Source: Pedobacter sp. SYSU D00535 (GTDB lineage Bacteria > Bacteroidota > Bacteroidia > Sphingobacteriales > Sphingobacteriaceae). From it: 64,000 bases of DNA. Under the pieces are notes generated by a model that was not told where the DNA came from, did not search any database, and worked only from the letters and a program-made list of their open reading frames with translations. This document shows, in pieces, positions 699-27,197 of this stretch; position 1 is the stretch's first letter; each line of letters opens with the position of its first letter. The position numbers were made by a program, and so were the translations under genes. The stretch is taken from assembly GCF_017355855.1 (NCBI RefSeq), contig NZ_JAFEWD010000004.1, forward strand, positions 124,001 to 188,000, written 5' to 3'.

Positions 699-2315
<1,617 letters not shown>

Positions 2316-2541
2316 TCAATTGAAATATTATTTGGATTTTTTAAGTTCTAAGAGTTTACCCGCGATAAGGAAAAGAGATCAAAATGTTGTTGTTCAAGAA
2401 ACGTAAATGATTTTTCCTTTGAACCCGAGGATAAATTTTGAGATAACGCCACAATTGTACTGCAATAATTTTAAAATAACAAAAATTAAAAAAAAATTTT
2501 AATGCACCTGCCGGTTTTGGTTACTTTGACTCCTTAAGAGT

Positions 2542-14306: not shown

Positions 14307-15092
14307 ATGGTCAAATTTAGCTACCCTAATGTTAGTTTGTTAATTACCCATTATAACAGGAGTGCCTCACTGCATCGCCTTCTTACTGCTTTTCAGCGAC
14401 TAGGTTTTGAGTTTGGGGAGATAGTTGTGTCTGATGATGGAAGTAATAAAGCTCACTTGAGCAGGATCTGTGCGATGCAGGAGAGGTTTCAGTTTAAGCT
14501 AGTTACTACTCCTGTTAACCTGGGCCTGGGAAACAATCTAAATAAAGGACAAGACGCTGTGACCAAGCCTTTCACCCTTTACGTGCAAGAAGATTTTATT
14601 CCTTTCGAGGCTTTTAGAGATGAGTTTCCTAATGCCTTACAATTTATGCAAAAGGATGCTGACCTCGATATTATTAGGTTTTATGCTTATTTTAGGTACC
14701 CGTATACCAGACCTTACGGTAAAGGGTTCTCTGAAATGATTTTTAAGCTAAATCTTTGGTATATAGATCATTTAAAATTCTATTTTTATAGCGATCATCC
14801 GCATCTGCGGAGAAGTAACTTTTTCCAGAAGTTTGGAAGGTATCCGGAAGGATTAAAAGGGGATTTAACGGAATTTTCAATGTGCTTGTCTTTCGTAAAA
14901 CATGGGGCAAAAGGGCTGTTTTACGATAAGTTCCGTGATCTATTTGATCAGGTGAATTACGATGAAGAGCCAAGTACGATGAGAAGAAGTCGTTGGAAGC
15001 AGCAAAATACCTTTCCAATTTTTGTCTTAAGGGCCTTGTATCAAAAGTATAGACTAGTTAAAAATACAGTACAATTTCTTTTACTAAAGTAA
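14307..15092 (+). CDS. Family 2-like glycosyltransferase (first of tandem pair)
   Basis: 261 aa with a GT-A-like N-terminal nucleotide-binding half: LLITHYNRSASLHRLL near the start, DDGS at about 45-48, and TPVNLGLGNNLNKGQ. LYVQEDF probably provides the acidic metal/acceptor-site residues. The C-terminal half holds the conserved block YFYSDHPHLRRSNFF and PSTMRRS. No membrane segments. It probably adds a sugar during surface polysaccharide synthesis; donor and acceptor unknown. The ATG at 14307 directly precedes the first beta strand. It is followed after 1 nt by a clear paralogue. Confidence 0.82.
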   Translation: MVKFSYPNVSLLITHYNRSASLHRLLTAFQRLGFEFGEIVVSDDGSNKAHLSRICAMQERFQFKLVTTPVNLGLGNNLNKGQDAVTKPFTLYVQEDFIPFEAFRDEFPNALQFMQKDADLDIIRFYAYFRYPYTRPYGKGFSEMIFKLNLWYIDHLKFYFYSDHPHLRRSNFFQKFGRYPEGLKGDLTEFSMCLSFVKHGAKGLFYDKFRDLFDQVNYDEEPSTMRRSRWKQQNTFPIFVLRALYQKYRLVKNTVQFLLLK

Positions 15093-15093
15093 A

Positions 15094-15873
15094 ATGGAAG
15101 AAGTTTATTTTAAGGGGGTTACGTTATTAATCACTCATTATAATCGCAGTAATTCTCTGGAACGTTTGCTGTCAGTCTTCAAAGAAGGAGGTTTTTTATT
15201 TGAGGATATTGTTGTCTCTGATGACGGAAGTAAAGTTGAACACCAGCAGAAGTTGCAGGAGATCCAAGAGAAGTACCAGTTTCGTTTAATAACGACACCG
15301 CAAAACAGGGGCCTGGGAAATAATCTTAACAAAGGGCAGCAAGCAGTAATTACGCCGCTTACCTTATACGTGCAGGAAGACTTTGTCCCCTTGCCGCCAT
15401 TTAAAGAAAAGTTAAAGGATGCCTTGTATTTTTTGGAGGAGCAGAGTGACCTTGATATGGTTAGGTTTTACGCCTATTTCAAGTACCCGTTCCTTAAACC
15501 GTTTAAAAACGGTTTTTCTGAAATGGTGTTTAGTCCCTGGCCCTGGTACTGGGGGTATCGAAAATACTATTTCTACAGCGATCATCCGCACCTGCGAAGA
15601 AGCAACTTTTTGGATAAATTCGGAAAATATCCAGAAGGTATTAAAGGTGACGCAACTGAATATCACATGATGTTTTCAGTGCTTCAGAAAAAGCCTAAAG
15701 CTTTGTATTACAATGATTTTAAAGGATTATTCGATCAAAGCAATTCAGCGGCAGAGCCGAGTACGATGAAAAGGAATTATTGGAGAGAAGCGGGAAATCC
15801 GCTTGTTACTGCTATGCGGCATCTATATCGTCACATAAAGTTCAATTTCGATTATCACTTTAGAAAGTGGTAA
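15094..15873 (+). CDS. Family 2-like glycosyltransferase (second of tandem pair)
   Basis: 259 aa, paralogous to the preceding gene along its whole length: LLITHYNRSNSLERLL, DDGS, TPQNRGLGNNLNKGQ, LYVQEDF, FYSDHPHLRRSNF, KYPEGIKGD and PSTMKR occur in the same order. The previous stop (15090-15092) is one base from this ATG, so the pair is co-translated. Divergence is greatest around the acceptor-side segment (PWPWYWGYRKYY versus LNLWYIDHLKFY), hinting at different acceptors. A terminator follows. Confidence 0.82.
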   Translation: MEEVYFKGVTLLITHYNRSNSLERLLSVFKEGGFLFEDIVVSDDGSKVEHQQKLQEIQEKYQFRLITTPQNRGLGNNLNKGQQAVITPLTLYVQEDFVPLPPFKEKLKDALYFLEEQSDLDMVRFYAYFKYPFLKPFKNGFSEMVFSPWPWYWGYRKYYFYSDHPHLRRSNFLDKFGKYPEGIKGDATEYHMMFSVLQKKPKALYYNDFKGLFDQSNSAAEPSTMKRNYWREAGNPLVTAMRHLYRHIKFNFDYHFRKW

Positions 15874-18800: not shown

Positions 18801-20324
18801 TCAGATAAACTGCGGCTCGTTCTTGGTTATCTCCTCGGCCGATTGCTGTTTGTCGAGCTTTGGAGCAACGTTGATGATAGCGACTACCATGTAGAAATAG
18901 ATACTCGTTGGAAATTGCACGAAGGCCTCCTGCGGATAGTTTCCGATATTTAGAGCGAAAGCTATCAGTAACATGGATAGCGCTATTGATTTTAGGAATG
19001 GGTCCTTTATTTTATAAAAGTTTTCTACCCCTGTTTTTAGTACCAGAAACATGAAGGTGCAGAAGATGATCAATCCCAACCAACCTAATTCTACCGCTAC
19101 GCGCACATATCCGCTATCTGGCGGGAAACTTGCAAGAAAGGAGTGAGGAGCAAAACGTTGTCCCCAAACACCTGTAGCTCCCAACCCACCGCCCATGGGG
19201 TGCGACTGGATGTAAGGCTGAATCCGCTTTTGATTATTTTTTCTCACGTTAAAGGAGGCGTCGTCTGAGGGTTTAAACGCTGACTGAAAGCGGTAGAGCG
19301 TCTGGTTGCTGGTTGGAATCGAGATGATGAAAGCAAGCATAAATCCGGCGACGGCACTAAAGATCATAATTCGTCTGTTGAAATTGAGTATCGCCAGCAG
19401 TACCAGCGCTACAGGCACCAATACGTATGCTCCCCGCGTTCCGGAGTAGAGCATATTCATAAAGAAGAAGATCACCATAGCGCCTAGTATCTTTTTCTTT
19501 GTTGCTGAAATGGGACCGAACATTAAGCCGATGCAAAGTAGAATACTTATCGCCATGTTGTAAGCGAAGGCAACCGGATCTGAGAATATCGAGAAAACCC
19601 GCCAGTGCCCGTTGATAAAAAGAAGGCCAATGATCTCAGGATCGTTGAAATTAGCTGACTCAAACCCAAAAAAGCCTATATGCTCTTGCTTGAAGGCGTA
19701 CAGAGCCGAGAAGAGCGCGAGCCCAAGCCAAAGCTTGATAATAAACTTCAGGAAGCTGATTGTTTTTATCTGGTACATAAAAACGAAGTACATCGTCATT
19801 ACAACCGCCATGGAACGAATGGTATAGAGCCAGGCCATTCGTGATTCAGACGCTGGGTTAGCTACCTGTAGAACGTTATAACCGATCCAGATGAGAATCA
19901 CGATGGATAAGGGGTCCTTAAACATCTTCCAGTCTGGATTACTTTTCTGGTTTATAAAAAAGCCAAGTAGCAGTAAGGCCTGAAGTGCATCCATCAATGT
20001 GCCGGCAGGGAAAGGAACCCCAAGTCGCATGAGTACAAATAGAAAAAAGGCCATTACCAGCAATACCACAATTCCAAATCGAGGATAGGCCACAACGGCT
20101 GTCACTATCGGTATTCCAATAAATGGCGCTAGTATCAGGATGCCAGGAGCTGGCCCAAACTTTCCTGTGAGGAATCCCAAGGTTAAACAGATTCCTAAGA
20201 GGAACGTTACGCCATACATATTCAGTAACTTCTCTGTTATTGTAATCCGTTTCAGAAACAATAGAACTTTGTTTCCTTTTTCAGGAGTTGGCGTGCTGTC
20301 TAGAGGTAGTTGCAACTTTTCCAC
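18801..20324 (-). CDS. O-antigen polymerase/ligase-like membrane protein
   Basis: 507 aa with about a dozen hydrophobic segments and a large periplasmic loop between late segments (about 325-405, including RKNNQKRIQPYIQSHPMGGGLGATGV and PHSFLASFPPDSGYVRVAVE). This architecture and the loop motif are typical of Wzy polymerases and WaaL ligases. It probably polymerises repeat units at the periplasmic face. The start is a GTG at 20324 overlapping the TAG of the tiny upstream gene (TAGTG), which supports the choice. Confidence 0.82.
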   Translation of the reverse strand: MEKLQLPLDSTPTPEKGNKVLLFLKRITITEKLLNMYGVTFLLGICLTLGFLTGKFGPAPGILILAPFIGIPIVTAVVAYPRFGIVVLLVMAFFLFVLMRLGVPFPAGTLMDALQALLLLGFFINQKSNPDWKMFKDPLSIVILIWIGYNVLQVANPASESRMAWLYTIRSMAVVMTMYFVFMYQIKTISFLKFIIKLWLGLALFSALYAFKQEHIGFFGFESANFNDPEIIGLLFINGHWRVFSIFSDPVAFAYNMAISILLCIGLMFGPISATKKKILGAMVIFFFMNMLYSGTRGAYVLVPVALVLLAILNFNRRIMIFSAVAGFMLAFIISIPTSNQTLYRFQSAFKPSDDASFNVRKNNQKRIQPYIQSHPMGGGLGATGVWGQRFAPHSFLASFPPDSGYVRVAVELGWLGLIIFCTFMFLVLKTGVENFYKIKDPFLKSIALSMLLIAFALNIGNYPQEAFVQFPTSIYFYMVVAIINVAPKLDKQQSAEEITKNEPQFI

Positions 20325-20453: not shown

Positions 20454-21668
20454 CTACTTCAATGGTTGCTCCTGCAAGTCTATAATCTCTTCAATCTTGG
20501 TCTGGCTTGAATGTCGTGTAGCGACAGACCGCTGATTGGCTTTCCTGGCACTTAATAGAGAAAGTACTTGGAAAAACATAAACCTGGGGATGTTAATTAA
20601 CGAACGATATATTCTCTTATCGGTGTTTGAAGACATTAGCGCTAACGCAAATCCAAGTACAAAGGCAAAAAAAGCAGCAACCCACACGAGCGATATAAAG
20701 GGATCGATGAAGAGATTGATAGCGCCGAAAAATGCGGAAAGAATCAAAAATATGAAGAGTGGTGGTCGAAGCAGAATCAGGCCAAACAGAGTTTGATTTG
20801 TACTGAAATTTTTGATGCCCTCAGCAATCAGATTAAATCCAAATTTGAAATACTTAAACCACGTATTAATCCAGCGGGAGCGTTGGTTGACCAGTTGATC
20901 TGATTTTGCCGTTTTTTCATCGTAAACAATGGCCTGTTCAGCGAAAGCAATCCTCGCTTCCTGCTTCAAGATTTCGTATTGAAGCACTTTGTCGAAACCG
21001 GCTCCTGATACATCTCTGCCTTCCAGACATGAACGGTAGAGAGATGTCGAAAATGCCATTCCTGAACCTGCTAGCGTGGCTGATGATCCAAGGTTATAAA
21101 GAATCTTGCCATCGTAAAAGTGGTAATATACATCTCTTGCGGCATCCAGGCAGGCGAGAGTAGTGTTTAAGTTTTTCGCAGCTCTGACACCCTGCACTGC
21201 ATTGTAGCCCTGATCAAAGAACACATTCAGTTCGTTCAGATAGTCAGGATGTACCAAGTTATCGCTATCGATAATTGTTATTCTGTTATGTGCCCTTCTA
21301 AAGTTTCGAATCGCGTAGAAGTGTGAACGCGTATTGCTTGCTAAGGTTTCTTCAGGTCGTAGAAGGATCACCTTTTCGCTTGCAAAACTTAGCCTGCTAA
21401 TATCGCACTTATCAGCAACGATGTAGATCAGAAAGTTTTCATATTTCAGCTTCAGCAGTGACTCTACTACAGCGGGTAGGGAGTCAGTCTGTTCATAGGC
21501 TGTTACGATTATCCCGTAGTCGTTTTCCTCACCGACAGATTTAATTACCTGGTCACGGTCCTTTCCTTTAAGCAGGTTCCATATGAAAAGAACCAAAGGC
21601 AAAATTAGGTTATATCCTATAATAACCTGAATAGCGATCCATAACCCGGTAATTAAGCTATCAAACAT
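20454..21668 (-). CDS. Membrane-anchored family 2 glycosyltransferase
   Basis: 404 aa: an N-terminal membrane helix (about 5-32), a GT-A domain with IIVTAYEQTDSLPAVVESLL, the DSDN metal site (IIDSDNLVHPDYL), and the SGMAFS acceptor-region block with RSRWINTWFKY (QxxRW-like RSRW). Two or three C-terminal membrane segments follow (about 300-370). This layout is like processive or lipid-linked transferases. Its start overlaps the end of the Wzc-like gene by 8 nt. Confidence 0.85.
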   Translation of the reverse strand: MFDSLITGLWIAIQVIIGYNLILPLVLFIWNLLKGKDRDQVIKSVGEENDYGIIVTAYEQTDSLPAVVESLLKLKYENFLIYIVADKCDISRLSFASEKVILLRPEETLASNTRSHFYAIRNFRRAHNRITIIDSDNLVHPDYLNELNVFFDQGYNAVQGVRAAKNLNTTLACLDAARDVYYHFYDGKILYNLGSSATLAGSGMAFSTSLYRSCLEGRDVSGAGFDKVLQYEILKQEARIAFAEQAIVYDEKTAKSDQLVNQRSRWINTWFKYFKFGFNLIAEGIKNFSTNQTLFGLILLRPPLFIFLILSAFFGAINLFIDPFISLVWVAAFFAFVLGFALALMSSNTDKRIYRSLINIPRFMFFQVLSLLSARKANQRSVATRHSSQTKIEEIIDLQEQPLK

Positions 21669-23904
21669 TTGCTAATTCTTTTTCAGGTAAATCAATTGTT
21701 TGTTTTTTACGAGTGAAGAACCAGGTTTTGCTCTTTTTCTTTTTGGCTTCTTTCTCGTTCTTGGTTTTGTTCAGAACCCAACCAGCAAACTGATCCGAAA
21801 GAGCTTTCAGGTAGTTAATGTTCTGGCGTTTGTATTCGTTAATACTTTGTCCTGCTTCAAACACACCTAATACCTTATTCGTGAAAACAAACCACTCCTT
21901 GGCCTTGCTGAGTGAATCAAGAGGAGATGTTTCAATAATGATAATATCAAACAGATCCTGAAGTTCTTTTAGCTTATTTTTTATATTCTGCTCCGAACTC
22001 AGTTCAAGCAGAGAATTATCACCTCCTCGATTGCTTAAAACGACAATCGGCGCTTCCTTGACAGACAAAAAACTGTCCTGATTTTTTTCTTTTAGGATAT
22101 CTTCCAGGAATAAGTTCGAGTTTACCGTCTTGCTGATGGACGGGCTGATGAAGTTGCCATCAATCAACAGTACTTTTTTGCCGATCATCGCGAAGGCATA
22201 AGCAAGATTGAGGGTTACAAAAGTTTTTCCCTCATTCCCTCTCAAGCTGGTGATTCCCAGTATCCGTTCCTTTCCGCTAAATTCCTTCTCCAGCTCAAAC
22301 CTGATCGATCGCAATTGTTCTTTGAGTAGCACAATCTCCTTGTCCTGGTTCTGCCCTTTCCAAATATTATTGATATCCAGCAAATTTCCGGGAAGCGCAT
22401 TAAGATACCCGAGTACGGAAGATTTGGTCCTCTGAGCCAATTCTTTTGGTGTGGTAATAGAGTTGTCCAGGAAGAACAACAGGAAAATAATCACAAAGCA
22501 GAAGACAAAACTGATCATCCCACTCAGGATTACAAGCAGCATCTTTTTGGACGGCTGGGCTAAACCTGGCATGGCCATCTGAACCTGCTTTAATTTTATT
22601 GAATAACCTGATTCCATGCTTGTCAGGTTATACTTATTCAATATCTCCAAATATTCCCGGCTGGTAATGTCAATGTCCCGTTCGAAAGTTTGAACAACTG
22701 CCTCGTTGGGCACTAATTGATCGAACCGGTTGTTTAATTCTTCCAGCTCTTCCTCGTATCGTTGTAAACTGTACTGATCCAGATCGTGCTGAATTTCAAG
22801 CATAATCTTTCTTGAGACGAGATCTTGTTTGGCATTGAGCGGATTGGTAATGTATTTATCAGAAAGATTGTTAATCTCAAGTGTGAGGATTCTTTTCATC
22901 GAGTCTATACTCGTCTTATACCTAGGGTCGTAACCGCTCTGAATATACTGGTCGCTTAATTGCATCAGCTTTCTCTTAGAATCCAGAATATCTTGATTGA
23001 TACGAGTTTGAGTAGCCTCGATATATCTCCTGTCTTGTGGTGAAAACTTGCCGTCGATATTTTTAAGTGCCCCCTTCGCTGCAATTACATCTTTTTCTGC
23101 CAATACCTTTTTAGCCTCAAACTCAATAATCTGCCCGTAAAGGATCCGCGATTGCTCGTAAAGGTTAAGCACCCGATTTTGAATTTTGTAATTCTTCAGG
23201 CCCAGTATCTTTTCGTTCATCGCCTGATACTTTTCCTGCAACAGCTTCGCCCAGAAATCTTTAGCTTTATTTTTGTTTTCCTTTACCAGGACGGTGTAGT
23301 ACTTGATAAACTCTTCGCAAATAGCGTTTGCGACGAAGGCCGACAGTTCAGGGTTTTCTGAAGAAAACTCCACATAGATAAAGTCGCTATTACCGGCACG
23401 GTACACCAAAAGCTTTTGCTTGATCGCTTCCTCCTCGTAGCGCATAGAACGAAGCAGCCTGTGCAGGCCGTTCTGATCCGCATTCCACAAGTTCAGGCCC
23501 TCTCTGTTCTGATATTTCTTTTTGTAGACCTGATAAGCATGTTTCTTTGCAGCTGGATCAAGTTCTGTCAGAAGACTACTATGTTTCCGGAATGGTTCCT
23601 TCGAAGTCAGATCATGCATGATGAGCTTGTAAGAAACCTGATCTATGATCTTCTTCATTTTCATCATCTCGATCAGGTTGCTGAACTCCTGTTGCACTTG
23701 AGCTTCCTGCCGGTTCTGGTTGTCTGAATCAACAGATGATTTTTGTGTCTCGTCAACTATACCTGTGGATATTTGTGCTTGTGACTGATAGCTATCCGGA
23801 AGATGCGTGACAATGTAGTAGGTAATAATAACTGCGACAGCGGGTAGAATGATGAGAGTAAGCTTGTGGCGCAGTAGGAGGTTGATAAATTTTTGTATTT
23901 CCAT
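21661..23904 (-). CDS. Wzc-like polysaccharide co-polymerase with degenerate tyrosine-kinase domain
   Basis: 747 aa. Membrane helices near 15-35 and 480-505 flank a long coiled-coil periplasmic domain, as in Wzz/Wzc chain-length regulators. The C-terminal cytoplasmic domain is BY-kinase-like: Walker A GNEGKT with Lys560. Walker A' reads LLIDGNF (582-585) where D-x-D is usual, and Walker B reads IIIETSP with Glu658 replacing the usual Asp. The tail is Lys-rich (KEAKKKKSK) and lacks the tyrosine cluster. It probably controls chain length or export and may have lost phosphotransfer. Confidence 0.85.
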   Translation of the reverse strand: MEIQKFINLLLRHKLTLIILPAVAVIITYYIVTHLPDSYQSQAQISTGIVDETQKSSVDSDNQNRQEAQVQQEFSNLIEMMKMKKIIDQVSYKLIMHDLTSKEPFRKHSSLLTELDPAAKKHAYQVYKKKYQNREGLNLWNADQNGLHRLLRSMRYEEEAIKQKLLVYRAGNSDFIYVEFSSENPELSAFVANAICEEFIKYYTVLVKENKNKAKDFWAKLLQEKYQAMNEKILGLKNYKIQNRVLNLYEQSRILYGQIIEFEAKKVLAEKDVIAAKGALKNIDGKFSPQDRRYIEATQTRINQDILDSKRKLMQLSDQYIQSGYDPRYKTSIDSMKRILTLEINNLSDKYITNPLNAKQDLVSRKIMLEIQHDLDQYSLQRYEEELEELNNRFDQLVPNEAVVQTFERDIDITSREYLEILNKYNLTSMESGYSIKLKQVQMAMPGLAQPSKKMLLVILSGMISFVFCFVIIFLLFFLDNSITTPKELAQRTKSSVLGYLNALPGNLLDINNIWKGQNQDKEIVLLKEQLRSIRFELEKEFSGKERILGITSLRGNEGKTFVTLNLAYAFAMIGKKVLLIDGNFISPSISKTVNSNLFLEDILKEKNQDSFLSVKEAPIVVLSNRGGDNSLLELSSEQNIKNKLKELQDLFDIIIIETSPLDSLSKAKEWFVFTNKVLGVFEAGQSINEYKRQNINYLKALSDQFAGWVLNKTKNEKEAKKKKSKTWFFTRKKQTIDLPEKELANV

Positions 23905-23905
23905 C

Positions 23906-24583
23906 TTACTTTACTTCTTCTAATTTTTTACCTAATAGTTCTTCCAGGCTGGCTTTAGCTACCAGCATCTCGTTCTCTGCCTGAAGTTTGGTTTGATTTT
24001 GTTCATAGAAGGCAAGTAAAGCCTGACTATAATCTCCAAAAGTTATCTCGCTCTTTTCATATTTGAATTTCATTCCACCCAACATGTTCTCGGCATCAAG
24101 CATGCCCCGCGACCGAAGCTTCAACGTGGCCATCTTTTGAACATACTGATAATAGCGCGTTTTTACCTGCGCTTCAATGTTCAGAAGATAAGCCTCTTTC
24201 TCAAACTGTAGCGTCTTGGTTTCAGCCTTTGCCTGTTTTACATTCCAGGGGTTCTGGATTATGGATCCAATATTAAGGGTAAATCCAATCTGAATACCAC
24301 TAAACAAGCTAGGTTCCACAATATTTAGAACGGCGTTTGGCTGGTAAACATAGGAAACAGAAAGTGGAGCAAGCCATCCCAGTTTGGCTCGGACTACCCC
24401 GTATTCTGCACTTTTAATTCTTGAATCCAACCCTTTAATAGTTGGGTAGTTTTCCTTCGCCGTCTCAACCAATCTTTCTAGGAAAGGGTAGGAGATGTCC
24501 TCCATAATACTTTCCTGAGAAAAGGAGCGGGTTGATATGACGAGAAAGAAAACAATGATGAGAGCGTTATATTTGTATTTCAT
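23906..24583 (-). CDS. Half-length TolC-family protein
   Basis: 225 aa with a signal peptide (LIIVFFLVISTRSFSQ) and one TolC-type helical/strand repeat: YPTIKGLDSRIKSAEYGVVRAKLGWLAPL, then long helices ending LLAFYEQNQTKLQAENEMLVAKASLEELLGK. Normal TolC proteins carry two such repeats and 430-500 aa, so this is about half. It may form a higher-order oligomer or a periplasmic adaptor. The ATG at 24583 fits the signal peptide; an upstream ATG at 24631 would overlap the previous gene. The Wzc-like gene starts one base after its stop. Confidence 0.75.
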   Translation of the reverse strand: MKYKYNALIIVFFLVISTRSFSQESIMEDISYPFLERLVETAKENYPTIKGLDSRIKSAEYGVVRAKLGWLAPLSVSYVYQPNAVLNIVEPSLFSGIQIGFTLNIGSIIQNPWNVKQAKAETKTLQFEKEAYLLNIEAQVKTRYYQYVQKMATLKLRSRGMLDAENMLGGMKFKYEKSEITFGDYSQALLAFYEQNQTKLQAENEMLVAKASLEELLGKKLEEVK

Positions 24584-24590
24584 TTTCGTT

Positions 24591-25679
24591 TTATACCTTT
24601 TCTTTCTGTAAAAGAGCAGGGAAAGTTCCAATTATGATCTTTAGATCAAGCCAAAAAGAATAATTAGCGGCGTAGTAGTTGTCCAACTTTTTACGCTCCC
24701 GCTCAGACATTTCCTCTTTCCCTCGTTTACTTATCTGCCACAATCCTGTTAGTCCAGCGGGACCTAAAAACCTTGTTGTCCATTCATTGGATGTCAACAT
24801 TTCTGCTTCATACAGGGGTAGGGGACGATTGCCTACCAGTGACATGTCCCCCTTCAAAACATTAAATAGTTGAGGAAGCTCATCAATACTCGTATTTCTG
24901 ATGAATTTTCCGATGCGTGTAATCCGCGGATCATCTTTGATCTTGACGAAAGCAGATTTTCCCGTTTCCGTATCTGTATATTGATTCAGGGCGGCAAGTT
25001 TAGCTATCTCCTGATCTGCTCCAGTCCGCATGGATCTGAACTTGTAAAAGTTGAAGACCTTGTATCCCGTGCCTACTCTTTTACTTTTGTATATTACCGG
25101 TCCTTTTGACTCAAGCCTAATCAGGGCAGCAATGATCAAAAAGAAAGGTGACAGCATAAGGAGGGCACCGCCGGAAACTGCAATGTCAAAAAGTCGCTTG
25201 TAGTAGGGCATTTGATATCGCACGTCAACAGTTTGCGAAAGTTCCGCCAGCTTCGGTTTTATTAGCTTGAACTTTACCAGGAAGCCTAATCGCTCAGTAA
25301 GATCTTCAATAGGGAAGGGATATGTATAAAAATCATGGATTTTCAACTGCATTGCCTTTCCTTTCCATGTCTTATTTGAAAACACGGACAGCACAACAAT
25401 GATCATCCCTTGAAGCAGCGGATTTTTCCTTATTTTGGAAATCAGGGATACCCATTGCTCCTTTTTATCCGCCTCAATAATGAGGATGTCAGGAAGGGTT
25501 AGCAAAGATTGATCGTTAAGGTACTGCTCCAGATTATTTAAGTCAAGCTCGTGCTGGTCTACATCAAATTGACTAGCTAACTCCGTTACGACAAAATCTC
25601 TTAGTTCAGTGCCGGTATATGCGATCTTTGCATGTACACCGGTTTGATGTGAAAGATTAATTTGGGACGCTAATGTCAT
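24591..25679 (-). CDS. Pseudo-receiver domain fused to polyprenyl-phosphate sugar transferase
   Basis: 362 aa. Residues about 15-140 look like a response-regulator receiver, but Glu69 (DILIIEAD) sits where the phospho-acceptor Asp is expected, the usual acidic pair is missing, and the conserved Lys is Tyr (YPF, 120-122). Residues 160-362 are a bacterial sugar transferase: one membrane hairpin (about 165-188), then KRVG, FYKFRSM, DELPQLFNVLKGDMSLVGNRP and PGLTGLWQI-like GPAGLTGLWQIS. The enzyme moves a sugar-1-phosphate to undecaprenyl phosphate, starting repeat-unit synthesis. It overlaps the response-regulator gene by 23 nt. Confidence 0.85.
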   Translation of the reverse strand: MTLASQINLSHQTGVHAKIAYTGTELRDFVVTELASQFDVDQHELDLNNLEQYLNDQSLLTLPDILIIEADKKEQWVSLISKIRKNPLLQGMIIVVLSVFSNKTWKGKAMQLKIHDFYTYPFPIEDLTERLGFLVKFKLIKPKLAELSQTVDVRYQMPYYKRLFDIAVSGGALLMLSPFFLIIAALIRLESKGPVIYKSKRVGTGYKVFNFYKFRSMRTGADQEIAKLAALNQYTDTETGKSAFVKIKDDPRITRIGKFIRNTSIDELPQLFNVLKGDMSLVGNRPLPLYEAEMLTSNEWTTRFLGPAGLTGLWQISKRGKEEMSERERKKLDNYYAANYSFWLDLKIIIGTFPALLQKEKV

Positions 25680-26049
25680 TTGTACGTGTTAAAAGATCAC
25701 TTATCACTGATTTTAAGGCTGTGGGGTTGAAAGGTTTTTGCATGTAACTTTCAACTTTAATGGACAAGCTCCTCACTTTTTCATCCAAATCGTCAGCTCC
25801 GGATAAAAGAATTACAGGAGTGTCACGATAAAAGCCGCTGATTTTTAAATTTCTAATGAAGGAACTTCCATCAAAATAGGGCATGTTTAAGTCCGAGATG
25901 ATGAGAGCTGGGTCGTTACCTTGTTCAAGCCAACTGATGGCTTCTACTCCGCTGTTTTTTATAACCAGATTATAGTCCTTCGACAGTACGAAATTCAAGA
26001 GTTTTAAGATGCTAACTTCATCATCTACGATTAGTATTTGTTTCTTCAT
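25657..26049 (-). CDS. Single-domain response regulator (CheY-like)
   Basis: 130 aa, receiver domain only. All the phosphorylation residues are visible: acidic pair Asp9-Asp10 (IVDDE), acceptor Asp53 (IISDLNMP), Ser83 and Lys105 (QKPF). No output domain, so it must act by protein contact. It is the first gene of the polysaccharide chain and its 3' end overlaps the sugar transferase gene, suggesting the two products work together. The ATG at 26049 is preferred to a TTG at 26055. No histidine kinase is in the window. Confidence 0.9.
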   Translation of the reverse strand: MKKQILIVDDEVSILKLLNFVLSKDYNLVIKNSGVEAISWLEQGNDPALIISDLNMPYFDGSSFIRNLKISGFYRDTPVILLSGADDLDEKVRSLSIKVESYMQKPFNPTALKSVISDLLTRTNDISVPN

Positions 26050-26684: not shown

Positions 26685-27197
26685 ATGAAAAGATCTATTA
26701 AATTTATAGCTACAGCAGCAGCTGTTGTAGCTCTCTTTTTCTCTACAAATTCAAGCGCTCAAACATCCGATGGCGATTCTAAGGATACTCGTCTTGGCGT
26801 CGGCTTGAGTTTAGGTATTCCAACTCATGAGTTTTTCAATTTTGCTGTAGGTGGCGACTTAAAACTTCAGAAAGATTTCTACAGCAATGTTTCAGGAACT
26901 GCATCAATCGGTTATACCAATTTCTCAGCTGAAGGTGAGGATGCCGGAAGTATCGGATTTATTCCTTTAAAAGCCGGTATCAAGGTTTTTCCACTAGAGC
27001 GTTTCTATTTATCAGGGGAAATAGGTGCAGGGTTTGGTACTGATGATAACCAACCAACCAGCTTCGTATGGTCTCCTGGGATTGGATTGGGTTTCAATAA
27101 TGGTTTAGATCTTGGACTGCGTTATGAGCGCTTTTCTAAATATGACCTGGGTCAAGTAGCTCTTCGAATTGCTTACGGCTTTAACCTTAGTCGCTAG
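26685..27197 (+). CDS. Small outer-membrane beta-barrel protein
   Basis: 170 aa with a signal peptide (cleaved after SSAQ, about residue 26) followed by alternating strands: LGVGLSLGIPTHEFFNFAVGGDLKLQKDF, SGTASIGYTNFSAEGE, FYLSGEIGAGFGTDD, NGLDLGLRYERF and the terminal VALRIAYGFNLSR. This fits a small eight-strand barrel. Function unknown. It is alone between the long intergenic region and its own terminator. Confidence 0.75.
   Translation: MKRSIKFIATAAAVVALFFSTNSSAQTSDGDSKDTRLGVGLSLGIPTHEFFNFAVGGDLKLQKDFYSNVSGTASIGYTNFSAEGEDAGSIGFIPLKAGIKVFPLERFYLSGEIGAGFGTDDNQPTSFVWSPGIGLGFNNGLDLGLRYERFSKYDLGQVALRIAYGFNLSR

Follow-up and report, generated by a model that had tools for sequence, protein, structure and literature searches.

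A response regulator gene paired with a gene for a pseudo-receiver phosphoglycosyl transferase in polysaccharide loci of Bacteroidota

Overlapping genes at the head of a polysaccharide locus

The window analysed here is a stretch of 64,000 nucleotides from Pedobacter sp. SYSU D00535 (Sphingobacteriaceae; contig NZ_JAFEWD010000004.1, positions 124,001 to 188,000). Coordinates are given as window positions, and features lie on the minus strand unless stated otherwise. A chain of polysaccharide genes begins with a stand-alone response regulator of 130 aa (RR; 25657..26049, with an ATG at 26049), followed by a phosphoglycosyl transferase of 362 aa (PGT; 24591..25679). The two reading frames overlap by 23 nt (25657..25679). 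Overlapping frames were observed at 67 of 79 adjacent pairs from relatives, and 23 nt is the commonest spacing (35/79); start codons for this count were fixed by rule, and the start of one locus (L029, gap 198) is wrong.

The next gene of the chain encodes a short outer membrane efflux-like protein (OEP; 23906..24586, PF02321, E 3.8e-23), which directly follows the PGT in 63 of 80 relatives. It is followed by a Wzz/Wzc-like chain-length protein with an ATPase domain (21661..23904; PF02706 and PF13614), which 68 of the 80 relatives also have at most 3 kb downstream, a family 2 glycosyltransferase (20454..21668; PF13641, E 2.4e-35) and a Wzy-like polymerase/ligase (18801..20324; PF04932, E 1.7e-14). 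The TolC/OEP-like protein is short (226 aa); at this place beside the Wzc-like gene, one might have expected an export protein of the Wza type. Diverging from the RR gene is a gene for a small secreted protein that looks barrel-like by eye (26685-27197, plus strand). It has matches at 5 of 80 named loci, and in Hufsiella a relative has remained next to the PGT (L217). Elsewhere in the window, two adjacent, paralogous-looking genes on the plus strand (14307-15092 and 15094-15873) are glycosyltransferase-like by eye.

In the RR, PF00072 covers residues 5-116 (Pfam profile search, E 3.2e-19). The acidic pair Asp9-Asp10 (codons 26020..26025), the predicted phosphorylation site Asp53 (25891..25893), Ser83 (25801..25803) and Lys105 (25735..25737) are all intact in 80 of 80 RRs (77 distinct sequences). 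With a receiver alone and all five phosphorylation residues present, the protein is a single-domain response regulator. No DNA-binding domain was matched in either the RR or the PGT, and matches to transcription factors span the receiver part only. A simple motif search revealed no linked histidine kinase; kinase-like frames flank 4 of 80 loci, all on the opposite strand.

The PGT matches PF02397 over residues 161-357 (E 1.6e-61), as do all 94 aligned PGTs. Counted from the re-entrant helix, the catalytic domain (residues 159-357; 24609..25205) contains the pattern D165-X12-P178 and the catalytic dyad Asp266-Glu267 (24879..24884). These four residues are invariant in the 94 sequences, and the dyad is that described for PglC, WbaP and EpsZ in the accessible text of PMC12802240. 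Residues 156-360 of the predicted structure superpose on PglC (8e37) with Z 20.4 and rmsd 2.8 over 180 residues (VIA-align). Thus the protein has the PF02397 domain, the DX12P pattern and the Asp-Glu dyad that define monotopic phosphoglycosyl transferases. Every NCBIfam match is under its cut-off, the nearest being TIGR03025 (249.9 vs 295.55 bits). The N-terminal transmembrane bundle that marks large monotopic PGTs (monoPGTs) is absent: the Kyte-Doolittle maximum in residues 1-158 is 1.22 (19-residue windows), and windows above 1.6 begin only at 163-173. Judging from the models, this is a bare monotopic PGT with a receiver in the place where large monoPGTs carry a transmembrane bundle and a DUF.

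This N-terminal domain (residues 16-140; 25260..25634) is poorly recognised by the receiver profile. The sole PF00072 match in the PGT is sub-threshold (residues 78-131, E 0.029), and E values of 0.01 or below are reached in 36 of 94 aligned PGTs. Its fold was predicted consistently: AF2 with 18 sequences placed residues 21-130 at pLDDT 83-91, and with 94 sequences the whole PGT had a mean pLDDT of 80.5 and pTM 0.60, with ten-residue blocks from 21 to 140 at 84-92. The modelled domain is a (beta-alpha)5 fold in which Glu69 ends beta3 and Tyr120 occupies the place of the conserved Lys. It superposes on solved receivers with Z 15-16.7 (VIA-align), the best example being residues 16-136 on 3dgf (Z 16.7, rmsd 1.6, 116 residues), and Foldseek agrees with VIA-align on both the receiver and the PGT domain matches. 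A profile of diverse pseudo-receivers aligns with the RR profile at E 7.5e-13 (hhalign), compared to 4.8e-5 for a narrower family profile. A non-receiver fold of this domain is rejected on the strength of the models and of the VIA-align and Foldseek matches to solved receivers.

Four of the five phosphorylation residues are missing from the domain. In the set of 81 PGTs (the window and 80 named loci), the place of the phosphorylatable Asp is taken by Glu in all sequences (Glu69, codon 25473..25475), the Lys is replaced by Tyr in 68 and retained in none (Tyr120, codon 25320..25322), and no sequence has adjacent acidic residues around positions 21-25; Ser98 is kept at the place of the conserved T. 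The register at the acceptor depends on the alignment: Glu69 stands opposite RR Asp53 according to the fold and the diverse profile, and Asp71, kept in 80 of 81 PGTs, according to the narrow profile, which opens a gap. Distant relatives have Glu or Asp at the acceptor place and no visible acidic pair, except that L202 retains one Asp of it. Since Glu69 is found in 81 of 81 PGTs and the five RR residues in 80 of 80 RRs, chance is an unlikely source of this pattern. On the predicted structure, the domain is a pseudo-receiver (PsR) as defined in the accessible text of PMC12632262, that is, a receiver fold with at least one of D, DD, T and K missing; going by its residues, it probably can no longer be phosphorylated. 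We call the protein PsR-PGT.

A previous sequence-only reading of this DNA had described two genes overlapping by 23 nt, a receiver with the residues listed above, an undecaprenyl-phosphate sugar transferase with a receiver-like N-terminal domain in which the acceptor Asp is Glu69 and the Lys is Tyr, and no DNA-binding output. The reading frames, profile searches and predicted structures bear out this description, Glu69 subject to the register just mentioned, and the predicted receiver fold passes the check on which that reading had staked its proposal. The loss of the acidic pair from the transferase is an addition to what that reading had noted.

Pairing and inheritance of the two genes

In a first set, 19 of 60 genomes matched, one of them (G037) only via a 1382-aa protein, and at 17 of the remaining 18 loci the RR immediately precedes the PsR-PGT. 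The same was observed at 79 of 80 named loci, which are the best 80 of 119 relatives retrieved with one peptide pattern. Finally, 201 genomes of the family contain 88 PsR-PGT loci in 87 genomes, and at 87 of these loci the RR is adjacent, upstream and on the same strand. These latter two counts rule out the pair as a one-off. The handles L005, L106 and L142 all stand for the window itself. The sequence-only reading had asked whether the pair co-occurs in other Sphingobacteriaceae, and it does; loci with the transferase and without an adjacent RR gene, which that reading would have counted against its proposal if interaction were absent as well, exist but are rare (one of the 88 family loci, and one genome of another family without such an RR), the link being conserved otherwise.

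RR matches of at least 120 bits were found in 86 genomes of the family, all 86 with a PsR-PGT, and in none of the 114 genomes without one (Fisher p 3.9e-57, uncorrected for shared ancestry). Linked RRs were the source of the profile, and the line was drawn after seeing the gap from 124.5 to 115.9 bits; the adjacent RR of one genome (G562) falls under it with 107.8 bits. The family scan scored up to 19 and 21 candidates in each genome, and its absences hold among those. No RR was found upstream of conventional PGTs at 33 control loci, 30 from a single search and three from the genome of the window; these represent 31 informative genes, as one gene is entered twice (L003 and L188) and L186 lacks upstream sequence. 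Given 86 of 86 against 0 of 114 genomes and 0 of 33 conventional loci, the RR tracks PsR-containing PGTs and not PGTs at large.

In other families of the phylum, the RR is adjacent at 12 of the 13 PsR-PGT loci fetched (L115, L116, L117, L119, L120, L121, L131, L133, L202, L203, L204 and L205), one of which, L202, comes from outside the class. The gene order RR-PGT-OEP-like-Wzc is repeated at L202, L203 and L205, and L206 has the same order minus the RR, the distant OEP-like genes being judged by place and by eye. The phylum search with the PsR alignment (A6) was too broad, as 356 of 395 genomes matched, mostly with frames unlike PGTs; the 20 stretches taken from it gave five PsR-PGTs (L202-L206), one Hufsiella region and 14 other receiver proteins, which were dropped, and further PsR-PGTs may exist among the remaining matches. 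L206 is the locus without an adjacent RR. Its genome (G872; one contig, 99% complete) has no linked-type RR anywhere: the best match among all 72 candidates, every one of them scored, has 78.5 bits, whereas in G739, which belongs to the same genus, the adjacent RR reaches 114.5 bits; candidates were scored exhaustively in three genomes in this comparison. Upstream of the PGT of G872 (L206/L222) there is a frame resembling a histidine kinase, and two ordinary receivers (48.9 and 56.2 bits) are located about 5-6 kb off.

A tree was constructed for 22 PsRs, 22 linked RRs and 36 other receivers (80 rows, 135 columns, L105 dropped). The PsRs are on one side of a single branch (support 100/98; 100% of bootstrap trees), and the sampled PsRs thus likely form a single clade, with the reservation that some long PsR branches meet (L133 with L203). 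The linked RRs require two changes on the tree, as two long-branch receivers (L249 and L253) fall among them. Several groupings recur in the PsR and linked-RR halves: L120 with L121, L204 with L205, L117 with L115 and L119, and L116 with L131. This fits co-inheritance of the PsR-PGT and the RR, largely in parallel. In pairwise distances, the PsR correlates with the RR modestly better than the catalytic domain does (partial correlation 0.58 vs 0.44; 90% of resamplings), in a comparison of linked genes made with no independent species tree. Inter-protein mutual information over 80 pairs showed no pattern (Neff 20.8).

The sole exception in the family is Hufsiella ginkgonis (L012 and L036 are the same locus), where the RR has been kept on another contig, beside OEP and Wzc and away from the PGT. 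One possibility is that the RR partners something else, such as the Wzc-like protein, the OEP, a phosphorelay or a phosphate sink; the PGT would then be its neighbour via the operon only, and the PsR would be structural or ligand-sensing. The conservation of RR-PGT-OEP-Wzc as a block would agree with this, as would the PsR-PGT of G872 without a linked-type RR and the fact that EpsW, a response regulator discussed below, was first proposed as a phosphorelay intermediary (accessible text of PMC4671073). On the other hand, RR presence follows PsR-containing PGTs, as described above, and the pair is found at L224, L231, L233, L234 and L236 with no Wzc match following it in a single-sequence search, which may miss diverged ones. 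We consider such a different partner unlikely. The lack of a linked-type RR in G872 slightly lowers the case for a PGT controlled directly by this RR and slightly raises the case for another partner.

Natural variants of the pair were also observed. The RR at L018 (G014; 1968-2360, minus strand) has Asn for Asp10 and Ser for Asp53 beside an intact PsR-PGT and is, by its sequence, a variant without a phosphorylation site. A second, inverted RR-PGT copy lies about 5 kb from the first at L237 (G480:C1:2120000-2139000); its N-domain scores the same, and its PGT frame has only 223 aa. Extra unlinked PGT-type RRs retaining W40 and S71 occur at L238 (G455:C126), where two stand side by side, and at L239 (G536:C9). 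A second RR-PGT pair (L236, G014:C6; PGT frame 404 aa) exists in a genome that also holds the main one. At L130 (G119; PGT frame 412 aa) the pair is present and the PsR model does not match the N-domain. The L236 and L130 pairs look like other subfamilies.

Conserved surfaces and the candidate mode of control

Two positions mark the PGT-linked RRs. Position 40 in alpha2 (Trp40; 25930..25932) carries W or Y in all 100 linked-type segments and in 2 of 20 other single-domain RRs; Ser71 of the pair Ser71-Gly72 at the end of alpha3 (25834..25839) is present in 100 of 100 and in 1 of 20. The two occur together in all 100 linked-type segments and in one of the 20 others, and Gly72 is near-constant in linked RRs and found in 3 of 59 other receivers. 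The linked-type segments are distinct, run from stop to stop and score above 120 bits; several belong to other families, and a few are extra copies that are unlinked. Frame length was the basis for choosing the 20 comparison RRs, which come from the genome of the window and two related genomes (G014 and G026); none of those from the first two is at a PGT of the search that gave the 30 control loci, and those of G026 were checked against the known PGT only.

The two receivers are conserved on different elements. In the RR, mean entropy is 0.37 bits in alpha1 and 0.56 bits in alpha2, against 1.36, 1.53 and 1.63 bits in alpha4, beta5 and alpha5; its conserved and family-specific residues map to alpha1, alpha2 and the alpha3 end. 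Conservation of alpha1 in the RR may also reflect kinase docking. In the PsR, alpha5 (0.62 bits) and beta5 (0.77 bits) are conserved, and alpha1-alpha4 have 1.6-1.9 bits. The residues invariant in 81 PGTs are Glu69, Asp116, Tyr118, Pro121 and, in alpha5, the most conserved helix of the domain (residues 124-140; 25260..25310), Glu129, Arg130, Phe133, Leu134, Phe137 and Leu139.

The model proposed from the sequence alone, in its strict form, is a classical heterodimer of the phosphorylated RR and the PsR through their alpha4-beta5-alpha5 faces. A dimer of the two receivers that depends on phosphorylation is conceivable. Both partners are indeed receivers, beta5 and alpha5 are among the most conserved elements of the PsR, an aromatic residue three positions before the Lys place is kept (F or Y in 78 of 81), and phospho-dependent heterodimers of a pseudo-receiver with a receiver have been raised as a hypothesis (accessible text of PMC12632262). 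However, beta5 and alpha5, but not alpha4, are conserved on the PsR side, whereas all three elements are the least conserved of the RR. By its conservation, the RR does not look built around this face. A classical heterodimer is not favoured for this reason, and we regard it as distinctly improbable.

The PsR, with its invariant alpha5 face, could have another role. It may be a homodimerisation domain that gives a dimeric PGT without the bundle and DUF of large monoPGTs, the RR stabilising the dimer or competing with it, or else binding only when unphosphorylated and inhibiting the enzyme. According to the accessible text of PMC12802240, large monoPGTs form dimers, and in a model EpsW favours the dimer of its target EpsZ, which would be in line with such a role; the same text has small monoPGTs functioning as monomers, which argues against it. 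This scheme seems rather doubtful.

Direct control of the PsR-PGT by a dedicated RR, gating polysaccharide synthesis at its committed first step, is the reading we favour, at slightly better than even chances. It is suggested by the near-constant pairing, the largely parallel inheritance, the intact RR residues, the W/Y40 and S71 marks, and the precedent of EpsW and EpsZ. An unlinked histidine kinase would phosphorylate Asp53 of the RR, and the phosphorylated RR would bind the pseudo-receiver, or its junction with the catalytic domain, and change the activity of the PGT, so that synthesis would be gated at the protein level. The pseudo-receiver would serve as a built-in docking or relay domain, presumably not phosphorylatable itself to judge from its residues. 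Its invariant beta5-alpha5 face probably passes the state on, either to the catalytic domain or to another copy of the PGT; a candidate site for docking is the family-specific patch that the RR has at alpha2 and the alpha3 end. By analogy with EpsW and EpsZ, activation of the PGT is likelier than inhibition. Several observations speak against direct control. Genes can stay linked in an operon without contact between their products, and the RR might act for Wzc, the OEP or a phosphorelay; the L018 RR, apparently without an acceptor, stands beside an intact PGT, the PsR-PGT of G872 seems to do without an RR, and no linked kinase was seen in the motif search.

A broader scenario is offered tentatively, as somewhat short of an even bet. 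A receiver may have been fused to a bare monotopic PGT early in Bacteroidota. After loss of its phosphorylation site, it would have diverged in step with a single dedicated receiver, still phosphorylatable and encoded next door. The outcome would be a two-receiver enzyme switch in which the phosphorylated partner operates the pseudo-receiver by docking via a non-classical face.

Comparison with known systems

A literature search, in which subscription papers are poorly covered, gave no paper describing the RR/PsR-PGT pair in Bacteroidota among the entries listed. Fusions of receiver domains to small monoPGTs were noted in an earlier sequence analysis, O'Toole et al. 2021, as cited in the accessible texts of PMC12802240 and PMC10942596, and are in this respect comparable with the PsR-PGT. 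Control of PGTs by response regulators beyond myxobacteria has also been suggested in PMC12802240, as far as its accessible text goes. Because of that suggestion and its mention of receivers in small monoPGTs, the scheme proposed here is not a wholly new principle.

The structurally characterised PglC (8e37) and WbaP (8t53) share with the PsR-PGT the catalytic domain, the DX12P pattern and the Asp-Glu dyad. PglC consists of the catalytic domain only, and in WbaP a transmembrane bundle and a DUF accompany that domain (accessible text of PMC12802240); this DUF has been proposed to respond to UMP (accessible text of PMC10942596).

The systems BldM-WhiI and CmrT, as presented in the accessible text of PMC12632262, likewise involve a receiver fold without phosphorylation residues, and regulation through receiver contact has been proposed for them. 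They regulate gene expression, whereas the output of the PsR-PGT is an enzyme and its candidate partner is a phosphorylatable RR from an overlapping gene.

The closest functional precedent is EpsW of Myxococcus xanthus, for which we rely on the accessible text of PMC12802240. EpsW is a single-domain response regulator encoded in an exopolysaccharide locus together with the initiating PGT, EpsZ, as the RR is here. Phosphorylated by the kinase DifE, it acts on EpsZ, and stimulation has been shown by experiment, with support from proximity labelling and heterologous activity. This post-translational action is thus experimental, whereas the RR-PGT pair is known here from sequences and predicted folds. 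As a large monoPGT, EpsZ possesses a transmembrane bundle and a DUF; the PsR-PGT has no bundle and carries a pseudo-receiver instead. EpsW accompanies 9 of 15 myxobacterial EpsZ orthologs, compared to the near-complete RR/PsR-PGT pairing within Sphingobacteriaceae. The pair offers a test case that is widespread, can be read out through an enzyme and has this close functional precedent. It also comes with natural variants, namely an RR without Asp53, an RR and PGT that are unlinked, and a PGT without an RR. If the favoured reading is true, control of the committed step of polysaccharide synthesis by response regulators extends from the large monoPGTs to another PGT architecture and another phylum.
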